A DNA stretch of 17,578 nucleotides from an uncultured Bacilli bacterium. GTDB taxonomy: Bacteria; Bacillota_I; Bacilli_A; RF39; UBA660. Below the pieces are notes generated by a model. The model did not search any database. It was not told the origin of the DNA and worked only from the letters and a program-made list of their open reading frames with translations. The position numbers were made by a program, and so were the translations under genes. The stretch lies in the NCBI GenBank assembly GCA_944364005.1, contig CALVVW010000036.1, positions 1 to 17,578 of the forward strand, written 5' to 3'. Of this stretch, positions 4,421 through 6,059 are shown piece by piece (the first letter of the stretch is position 1; each line of letters begins with the position of its first letter).

Positions 4421-5020
4421 ATGGCAAGAGTAAAAAATGGAGCAGTTACAAAAGCTCGTCATAAAAAAGTATTAAAACAAGCTAAAGGTTACTTTGGTAG
4501 TAAACATAGACTTTATAAGTCAGCAAAAGAACAATTAATGCATTCTGGTCAATATGCATTTAGAGACAGAAAACAGAAAAAGAGAGAATTTAGAAAGTTA
4601 TGGATTACTAGAATTAATGCTGCATGCCGTCAAAATGACATCAGTTATTCTAGATTTATTGAAGGTTTAACTAAAGCAGGTGTTGAAGTTAACCGTAAGA
4701 TGTTATCAGAAATTGCAATTAACGATCCTAAGATGTTTAGTGAGTTTGTTAAAATTGCACGTGATGGTAAAGAAGGTAAAATTACTCCAGCAGAAGAAGT
4801 TATTGGACGTGAAGTTACTGTAACTGCATCTAATGGAGCTAAAGAAGAGAAAAAAGTAGCAGCTGCAAAACCTGATAAAAAAGAAGAAGTAGCAGAAGAA
4901 GCAACTACTGATTATACAAAAATGACAGTTGCTGAATTAAAAGAAGCTGCAAAGAAAGCTAATATCGAAGGATATTCTACTATGAAAAAAGCTGAGTTAG
5001 TAGCAGCATTAACTAAATAA
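4421..5020 (+). CDS. rplT: Large ribosomal subunit protein L20 (bL20) with a C-terminal Rho-N/SAP-like extension
   Basis: Residues 1 to about 118 are a complete L20: ARVKNGAVTKARHKKVLKQA, GYFGSKHRLYKSAKEQ, YAFRDRKQKKREFRKLWITR and the C-terminal globular part. L20 binds 23S rRNA early in 50S assembly and in Firmicutes represses this operon through the leader. The protein is 199 residues where about 118 is normal. Residues 119-167 are a Lys/Glu/Ala linker, and 168-199 (MTVAELKEAAKK...) form a helix-extended-loop-helix unit of the Rho-N/SAP-like type, almost the same as the end of S2 encoded next. No frameshift or fusion boundary is seen. The ribosome site GGAGGAAG fits. Core identity is certain; the role of the tail is unknown. 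Confidence 0.97.
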   Translation: MARVKNGAVTKARHKKVLKQAKGYFGSKHRLYKSAKEQLMHSGQYAFRDRKQKKREFRKLWITRINAACRQNDISYSRFIEGLTKAGVEVNRKMLSEIAINDPKMFSEFVKIARDGKEGKITPAEEVIGREVTVTASNGAKEEKKVAAAKPDKKEEVAEEATTDYTKMTVAELKEAAKKANIEGYSTMKKAELVAALTK

Positions 5021-5111
5021 AAATATACATATTAGCGAATTTATTTATCTAGTGCCTTAGGGTGGTAAATATTAGAAACTAATAGAAGAAAAACGAAAAG
5101 GAGAAAGAATT
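5021..5111 (+). promoter_or_regulatory. rplT-rpsB intergenic leader, possible S2 control region
   Basis: Ninety-one bases, much longer than the other gaps in the operon. There is no recognisable promoter or terminator. ATTAG (5071-5075) and CTAAT (5079-5083) can form a small hairpin, preceded by TTAGGGTGGTAAAT (5057-5070). The ribosome site of rpsB is AAAGGAGAAAG near 5096-5106. A cis element bound by S2 is conceivable but unproven. Confidence 0.25.
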
Positions 5112-6059
5112 ATGTCTATAGTATCAATGAATTATTTATTAGAAGCTGGTGTTCATTTTGGACATCAAAAGAGAAGATGGAATCCTAAGATGAAGGAGTT
5201 CATCTATACAACAAGAGATGATATTTATATTATCGATTTACAAAAAACTGTAAAAAAATTAGAAGAAGCATATGAAGCAATGAAAGAGATTGCTGAAGCA
5301 GGTGGAAAGGTTTTATTTGTAGGAACTAAGAAACAAGCTCAAGAAGCTGCTGAAGAGTGTGCTGTTAGAACTAACATGTATTTCGTTAATGAAAGATGGT
5401 TAGGTGGAACTTTAACTAATTTCAAGACTATTCGTTCTAGAGTTAAGAGAATGGATGATATTGATAAAATGGAAGCTGATGGTACATTTGATTTATTACC
5501 TAAAAAAGAAGTTATCCAAATTAAGAAAGAATATGCTAAGTTAGATAAGAACTTAAGAGGTATTCGTGAAATGAAGAAATTACCTCAGGCATTAGTAATT
5601 GTTGATCCTCGCAAAGAAGAGAATGCAATTAAAGAAGCTCGTATTTTAGGAATTCCTGTATTTGGTATCGTAGATACTAACTGTGATCCTGACTTAGTTG
5701 ATTACGTTATCCCTGGTAATGATGATGCTGTTCGTGCTGTTAAATTATTACTTGGTGTATTAACTAATGCTATTAGTGAAGTTAATGGTAATGAAATTAT
5801 TGACTATGTTAATGATGATGATAAATCTAAAGGTGAAAAGAAAGCTTCTAAGAAAGAAAATGTAAAAGAAGAGGCAAAAGAAGTAAAACCTGAAGTTAAA
5901 GAAGAAGTAGTAGAGGAGAAAGTAGAAGAGGTATCTACAGATAATGATGAGTTTTCTTCTATGACATTGGCTGATTTAAAAGCAAAAGCTAAAGATGCTG
6001 GTGTTAAAGGATATTCTACTATGAAAAAAGCTGAATTAATTGAAGCATTAACTAAATAA
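5112..6059 (+). CDS. rpsB: Small ribosomal subunit protein S2 (uS2) with a C-terminal Rho-N/SAP-like extension
   Basis: The S2 core spans residues 1 to about 225: LLEAGVHFGHQKRRWNPKM at the N-terminus, VLFVGTKKQAQ, ERWLGGTLTNFKTIRSR, then IVDTNCDPDLVDYVIPGNDD and AVKLLLGVLTNAI. S2 joins late in 30S assembly and helps anchor S1-type functions. At 315 residues it exceeds the usual 230-260. Residues 226-283 are a highly charged Lys/Glu/Asp linker, and residues 284-315 match the L20 tail without gaps (22 of 32 identical). It is followed by tsf, the usual partner, across a possible attenuator. Core identity is certain; the extra domain is unexplained. Confidence 0.97.
   Translation: MSIVSMNYLLEAGVHFGHQKRRWNPKMKEFIYTTRDDIYIIDLQKTVKKLEEAYEAMKEIAEAGGKVLFVGTKKQAQEAAEECAVRTNMYFVNERWLGGTLTNFKTIRSRVKRMDDIDKMEADGTFDLLPKKEVIQIKKEYAKLDKNLRGIREMKKLPQALVIVDPRKEENAIKEARILGIPVFGIVDTNCDPDLVDYVIPGNDDAVRAVKLLLGVLTNAISEVNGNEIIDYVNDDDKSKGEKKASKKENVKEEAKEVKPEVKEEVVEEKVEEVSTDNDEFSSMTLADLKAKAKDAGVKGYSTMKKAELIEALTK
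6009..6059 (+). repeat. Near-identical 51-base direct repeat of the rplT 3' end
   Basis: Bases 6009-6059 at the end of rpsB match 4970-5020 at the end of rplT at 47 of 51 positions, in the same frame and both ending at the stop codon. Three of the four differences fall in two adjacent codons (Val-Ala versus Ile-Glu). Identity at synonymous positions points to a recent duplication or gene conversion of the domain-coding segment. Confidence 0.9.

Follow-up and report, generated by a model that had tools for sequence, protein, structure and literature searches.

A C-terminal Rho_N module shared by ribosomal proteins L20 and S2 in a family of mostly uncultured Bacilli

The Locus and Its Question

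Why should a protein of the 50S subunit and a protein of the 30S subunit, encoded side by side, end in the same small domain? The question is raised by a stretch of 17,578 nucleotides from an uncultured Bacilli bacterium (contig CALVVW010000036.1 of assembly GCA_944364005.1; GTDB lineage Bacilli_A, RF39, UBA660), referred to here as the window. As judged by sequence recognition, the window carries the translation genes infC-rpmI-rplT, rpsB-tsf, frr, and pheST, together with, among others, the end of a glycyl-type tRNA synthetase gene and two hydrolase-like genes. The gene rplT, encoding L20 of 199 amino acids (4421–5020), adjoins rpsB, encoding S2 of 315 amino acids (5112–6059). An earlier note had singled out positions 4774–6059, an interval that starts at the third position of L20 codon 118 and comprises the L20 tail, the spacer, and the whole of S2.

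Two Complete Ribosomal Proteins with One C-Terminal Module

Both proteins, encoded on the forward strand, possess complete ribosomal cores. The bL20 core (residues 1–115; 4421–4765) matches Pfam Ribosomal_L20 over residues 3–108 and model positions 1–106 of 107 with 160.2 bits against a cut-off of 30.8, and the uS2 core (residues 1–225; 5112–5786) matches Ribosomal_S2 over residues 9–223 and model positions 1–215 of 216 with 332 bits against a cut-off of 26.1. Each core is followed by a charged linker that is predicted to be disordered in L20 (residues 116–163; 4766–4909; net charge −2; pLDDT below 50 at 126–162) and mostly disordered in S2 (residues 226–280; 5787–5951; net charge −9; pLDDT below 50 at 238–259 and 261–278). 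The linkers lead to a C-terminal module, located at residues 164–199 of L20 (4910–5017) and residues 281–315 of S2 (5952–6056), whose net charge is small in the window pair (+2 and +3).

Aligned without gaps, L20 residues 168–199 and S2 residues 284–315 are identical at 22 of 32 positions, as the earlier note had reported; among 200,000 shuffles the best reached 13 and none reached 22. The resemblance extends to the DNA, in which 76 of 96 bases are the same, 19 of the 22 identical residues use the same codon, and an exact run of 28 bases is common to both genes. The Pfam cores and pLDDT values likewise bear out the note's description of a unit carried on a long charged Lys/Glu linker past a complete core, and its view that one module sits on both 50S L20 and 30S S2 holds, with the Rho_N profile above its cut-off on both.

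The Module as a Rho_N Domain

Rho_N (PF07498, cut-off 24.9 bits) is passed by L20 at residues 164–199 (38.5 bits) and by S2 at residues 283–315 (37.3 bits). SAP and HeH domains are of the same small helix-loop-helix type, but Rho_N fits better: on the whole proteins SAP (PF02037, cut-off 23.9) reaches 22.9 bits in L20 and 17.1 bits in S2, and HeH (PF12949) stays below its cut-off on L20 and gives no listed match on whole S2. With the tails alone, L20 passes the SAP cut-off (26.5 bits) and S2 does not (21.5 bits). A profile built from 14 modules and compared with the PDB found its best match in the SAP chain 1jjr (E = 1.8e-7), which we take to be the SAP domain of Ku70, and also matched three solved Rho proteins, 7oqh (3e-5), 8hsj (1e-4), and 3l0o (0.009).

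AlphaFold2 predicts a helix-loop-helix in both modules, with mean pLDDT of 77–83 after linkers below 50; the helices span residues 170–179 and 190–198 of L20 (pLDDT about 81–83 from residue 171 on) and residues 286–295 and 306–314 of S2 (pLDDT 77–83). VIA-align searches with the L20 and S2 models returned no neighbour of the module among the matches listed (covering residues 52–120 of L20 and 2–228 of S2), because the ribosomal cores filled the lists. Taken together, the Pfam match, the Rho and SAP chains in the PDB, and the predicted fold agree with the Rho-N/SAP helix-loop-helix proposed in the earlier note, which had named a missing profile match and disordered tails as counter-evidence; the tails match Rho_N, and within them the linker is predicted to be disordered and the module ordered. 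Among the conserved polar positions of the module are lysines of helix 1 and of the beginning of helix 2: K178, K189, and K190 are invariant in 30 aligned L20 sequences, and among 42 aligned S2 sequences K294 is invariant and K305 and K306 are at least 90% conserved.

The same profile recognizes the Rho_N domain of the terminator Rho; there it is N-terminal, whereas here it is C-terminal on L20, S2, and FtsH and stands without Rho_RNA_bind. The Rho RNA-binding domain (PF07497) was found in none of 88 genomes of the window's family at an E-value of 0.001, compared with three of 147 relatives (two above cut-off) and nine of 14 in the control rings. A Rho protein or Rho fragment as the identity of the carriers is therefore ruled out, the carriers being L20 and S2 and the family lacking PF07497 matches. 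For annotation this is a warning that a Rho_N match in these genomes does not equal Rho.

Distribution among Relatives

Of the 147 relatives, 88 belong to the window's family. Rho_N is present in 121 of the 147 and in 87 of the 88 (the exception is G074), and the nearest genome examined (G001) has it on L20, S2, and FtsH. The 228 Rho_N matches of the 88 genomes, assigned by their position relative to S2 and L20 searches and by frame length, comprise 83 on S2, 70 on L20, 65 on frames of FtsH size or on fragments confirmed as FtsH, three on contig-edge fragments, and seven below cut-off; obtained as a recount, these figures agree with the first tallies. Of the 84 family genomes with a judgeable S2, all but G074 have the module on it (83 of 84), and of the 82 with a judgeable L20, 70 have it there and 12 lack it. 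The S2 count leaves out G015, G019, and G046 (no S2 core match) and G080 (S2 runs off the contig), and the L20 count leaves out G014, G015, G038, G052, G062, and G077 (no usable L20 match), although in G062 Rho_N occurs on a fragment at a contig edge. Both genes were read from 39 genomes; the module ends both proteins in 37 of these and is missing from L20 in the other two (G024 and G029). Close relatives, whose lack of the extension the earlier note had regarded as a refutation, thus keep it on both proteins.

FtsH-sized frames with Rho_N above cut-off, that is, open frames of 652–685 amino acids (63 genomes) or fragments confirmed as FtsH (G003 and G025), occur in 65 of the 88 family genomes, and two further frames of this size (G029 and G052) score below the cut-off. 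Sequence comparison confirmed the identity of FtsH in six genomes (G001, G031, G032, G003, G025, and G020), in one of them by Pfam, and at loci L003 and L253 its module lies within a few residues of the C-terminus.

Beyond the family, S2 with the module was identified in all five genomes of f10, which protein names indicate to be Acholeplasmataceae, in all five of f12, and in the single genome of f14, with L20 carrying it too in the genomes checked; S2 also bears it in f27 and one f15 genome. Genomes of f3, f8, f9, and f17 have it on L20 but not on S2, and in f19 and f21 genomes L20 is the sole Rho_N match among the matches listed. L20 stops at the core in f4, f11, f13, and others. In this sample of relatives the L20 module therefore spans more families than the S2 module.

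Named L20 proteins with Rho_N include those of Acholeplasma equirhinis, A. oculi, A. granularum, A. hippikon, and Alteracholeplasma palmae; in the search that gave them, PF07498 is present on 111 of the 120 top-ranking proteins out of about 8,000 scored. For the window's own S2 and L20, the 120 closest relatives of each, again out of about 8,000, all have Rho_N. The 80 named S2 loci divide into 11 whose match runs through the module and 69 whose match does not; Bacillus, Paenibacillus, and Clostridium belong to the 69. The Rho_N domain itself is known, and public protein records already show its fusions to L20 and S2 as precomputed Pfam domains. A search of the open-access literature found no description of an L20 or S2 with a Rho_N or SAP domain, and a term search of PMC7203096 returned nothing on such tails.

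A sample of 134 module-bearing ORFs, drawn from loci hand-picked for diversity and containing some duplicated genes, consists of 52 S2, 48 L20, 6 FtsH, and 28 other proteins, with at most five residues following the module on S2 and at most seven on L20. Membrane helices are predicted in 15 of the 28 others. Oligopeptide-type ABC ATPases are also among the carriers (L214, and L247 slightly below the Rho_N cut-off), and the genus g87 has the module on Rho itself. In f10 and f12 genomes, polytopic membrane proteins (L055, L240, L242, L248, L249, and L251) terminate in the module; Pfam scans of L240, L248, and L251 gave no other family above cut-off. In G089 (f2), positions 1940–2399 of locus L051 encode a protein with at least two tandem module-like repeats close to its start.

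Selection on the Module and Possible Exchange between Genes

Among nine genomes of the genus, the window included, module dN/dS is 0.13 in S2 and 0.135 in L20, compared with 0.34 and 0.44 in the respective linkers and 0.06 and 0.05 in the cores, and the module pairs compared are free of gaps. The module is under purifying selection. Mean pairwise identity over 35 genomes is 0.67 (S2) and 0.65 (L20) for the modules, 0.42 and 0.41 for the linkers, and 0.78 for the cores; the 35 are 37 genomes minus N118, whose modules are the same as those of G009, and G001, which is almost the window, and the regional identities also leave out two S2 fragments (G044 and G061). Linker length varies from 49 to 121 residues in S2 and from 19 to 62 in L20, and disordered linkers of variable length would suit a tether.

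For 28 of 35 S2 modules the nearest module is that of another S2, for four it is that of their own L20, and three are ties, which rules out recent duplication between neighbours as the whole story. Nevertheless, the S2 and L20 modules of one genome share an identity of 0.703, a value that none of 20,000 permuted pairings reached (mean 0.626, sd 0.010). Where residues are identical, their codons also agree more often within genomes (0.722) than after permutation (0.642); neither permutation corrects for kinship. In N121, N122, and N123 the modules are much alike between the two genes, where some homogenisation is likely to have occurred. Our reading of these sequences is that two old modules have stayed distinct and were occasionally homogenised or jointly adapted to a single target.

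The module might instead be nearly neutral, a mobile C-terminal domain that recombination carried from one gene to its neighbour and that is retained although it does little. The adjacency of rplT and rpsB, the 28-base exact run, the likeness across genes in N121, N122, and N123, the codon identities just given, and the repeated loss of the L20 module are all in keeping with such spread. We consider it improbable nonetheless, because gap-free modules evolve at a dN/dS of 0.13 next to linkers at 0.34 and 0.44, because S2 keeps its module in 83 of 84 genomes, because most S2 modules are nearest to another S2 module and not to their own L20, and because losses on L20 coincide with a tail of another kind.

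What the Module May Bind

All 12 readable family L20s without the module (G021, G024, G029, G031, G034, G042, G055, G056, G067, G074, G076, and G087) end in a Lys/Thr-rich basic tail. These tails have net charges of +7 to +20 (mean 13.3), compared with a mean of 4.1 and a range of −2 to 16 for 44 module-bearing tails, some of them from other families; since the latter reach +16, the contrast in charge is unclean. A tree of L20 cores implies at least seven changes of tail type, a rough number given that 30 of its 55 inner branches are weak. G074, the only family genome with a complete S2 lacking the module, has a basic tail there too (net +18). Lys/Thr-rich tails of this kind resemble those of histone H1. 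We regard the swap as the best evidence, indirect as it is, that the module may touch nucleic acid, and the nucleic-acid tethering proposed in the earlier note gains indirect support from it.

We therefore propose, with a probability of roughly one half, that the modules of bL20 and uS2 could serve as tethered nucleic-acid grips, one per subunit, whose likeliest target would be RNA at or near the ribosome. Binding would involve the conserved lysines of helices 1 and 2 described above and would give the 70S ribosome two flexible grips. L20 lies on the solvent side of the 50S subunit, and its module might grip rRNA, mRNA (including that of an adjacent ribosome), an adjacent ribosome itself, or DNA. 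The S2 module could hold the mRNA of its own polysome close to the 30S platform, given that S2 is the docking place of S1 in E. coli (4toi). Such grips would raise the local affinity for mRNA and keep polysomes together, and the FtsH module could keep translating RNA close to the membrane. The small net charge of the module, its repeated loss from L20, and an inconsistent link to S1 count against this proposal.

Rho_N/SAP folds can also mediate protein contacts, and the module may alternatively be a docking handle by which ribosomes and membrane proteins share one partner, such as a factor for hibernation, quality control, or membrane anchoring. Within one family S2, L20, and FtsH end in the same module, over half of the other sampled carriers (15 of 28) have predicted membrane helices, and the elevated within-genome identity of S2 and L20 modules would fit adaptation to a single partner, as it would gene conversion. 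A basic Lys/Thr tail, which replaces the L20 module in all 12 readable cases of the family, appears better suited to nucleic acid than to a specific protein contact, and we think a docking role rather unlikely. Subunit pairing during hibernation, also suggested in the earlier note, finds no specific support, because several families have the module on L20 but not on S2 and because FtsH and membrane proteins carry it too.

Returning to nucleic-acid grips, a broader picture may be offered tentatively, and we hold it to be doubtful: in these Bacilli, in which neither Rho nor a full S1 was found, Rho_N would be an interchangeable grip on exactly three proteins (L20, S2, and FtsH) that joins polysomes, mRNA, and membrane in one network, with Lys/Thr tails as its substitute on L20.

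Relation to S1 and to L20 Autoregulation

In E. coli, S1 docks on the S2 core. It is conceivable that, after the loss of a full S1, S2 gained an RNA-binding part beside this dock with which to catch mRNA. The best rpsA profile match in the 88 family genomes has an E-value of 1.1e-18, compared with 1e-44 to 1e-121 in many genomes of f3, f6, f8, f10, f11, f12, and other families; none of the 147 genomes reaches the profile's own cut-off, so the absence of a full S1 is read from this score gap. The S2 model superposes over about residues 2–228 on solved S2 chains, among them that of the E. coli S2–S1 complex 4toi, and one relative (G112) has Rho_N on S1 itself, which would also agree with such a substitution. 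On the other hand, f10, f12, and f14 combine a strong rpsA match with an S2 module, and f4, f7, f13, and others have neither, which rules out strict replacement of S1 as a rule. The modules of L20 and FtsH would be left unexplained, and the clear Shine-Dalgarno sequences of rplT, rpsB, and tsf in the window suggest that S1 may matter little here. We give substitution for S1 little credence.

A probable L20 leader, an autoregulatory RNA, lies upstream of infC-rpmI-rplT at 3511–3637 on the forward strand; it matches Rfam RF00558 over the whole model with 39.3 bits (E = 1.5e-5), below the gathering score of 58.7. L20 autoregulation may thus persist alongside the longer L20. With this leader, and with the module present on L20 in more sampled families than on S2, it could be argued that the module aids ribosome assembly or L20 autoregulation by binding 23S rRNA or the leader mRNA, the S2 copy being secondary. 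In the window's family, however, the module is better kept on S2 (83 of 84) than on L20 (70 of 82), and FtsH carries it as well, and we deem this explanation highly improbable.

Comparison with Known Systems

Extensions of ribosomal proteins are common. In the in-cell ribosome of Mycoplasma pneumoniae, 11 of 52 proteins are reported to be extended, with functions largely elusive, and the extensions are mostly predicted to be disordered, those of S6, L22, and L29 forming secondary structure (PMC9534751). The extensions described there are likewise lineage-specific and lie beyond the core, but here both subunits bear a folded module that can be named, and this module is under selection and kept in genomes in which no Rho was found.

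S1 docked on S2 similarly places an RNA-binding element at S2, with binding by the module being our suggestion, and the Rho_N of G112 sits on S1; yet S1 is a protein in its own right, built from several S1 domains, whereas a helical module of 35 residues is fused to S2 here. The several natural swaps of module for basic tail make the role of such extensions directly testable, and the presence of the L20 module in named Acholeplasma species means that ribosomes carrying it could be purified and imaged.

Other Features of the Window

Further genes of the window were annotated in passing. A 245-residue protein encoded at 16742–17479 has a weak Tim44-like match (26.6 bits; cut-off 29.6). Between frr and pheST, an envelope-type gene run (9185–12852) encodes two proteins with YALLSE/YALLSQ N-termini, reminiscent of TasA/camelysin-like proteins, as well as an S26 signal peptidase (24.8 bits; cut-off 22.9) and a DUF5305 protein. 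Directly upstream of pheST, a T-box leader (RF00230, 115.8 bits) is present at 12892–13088.
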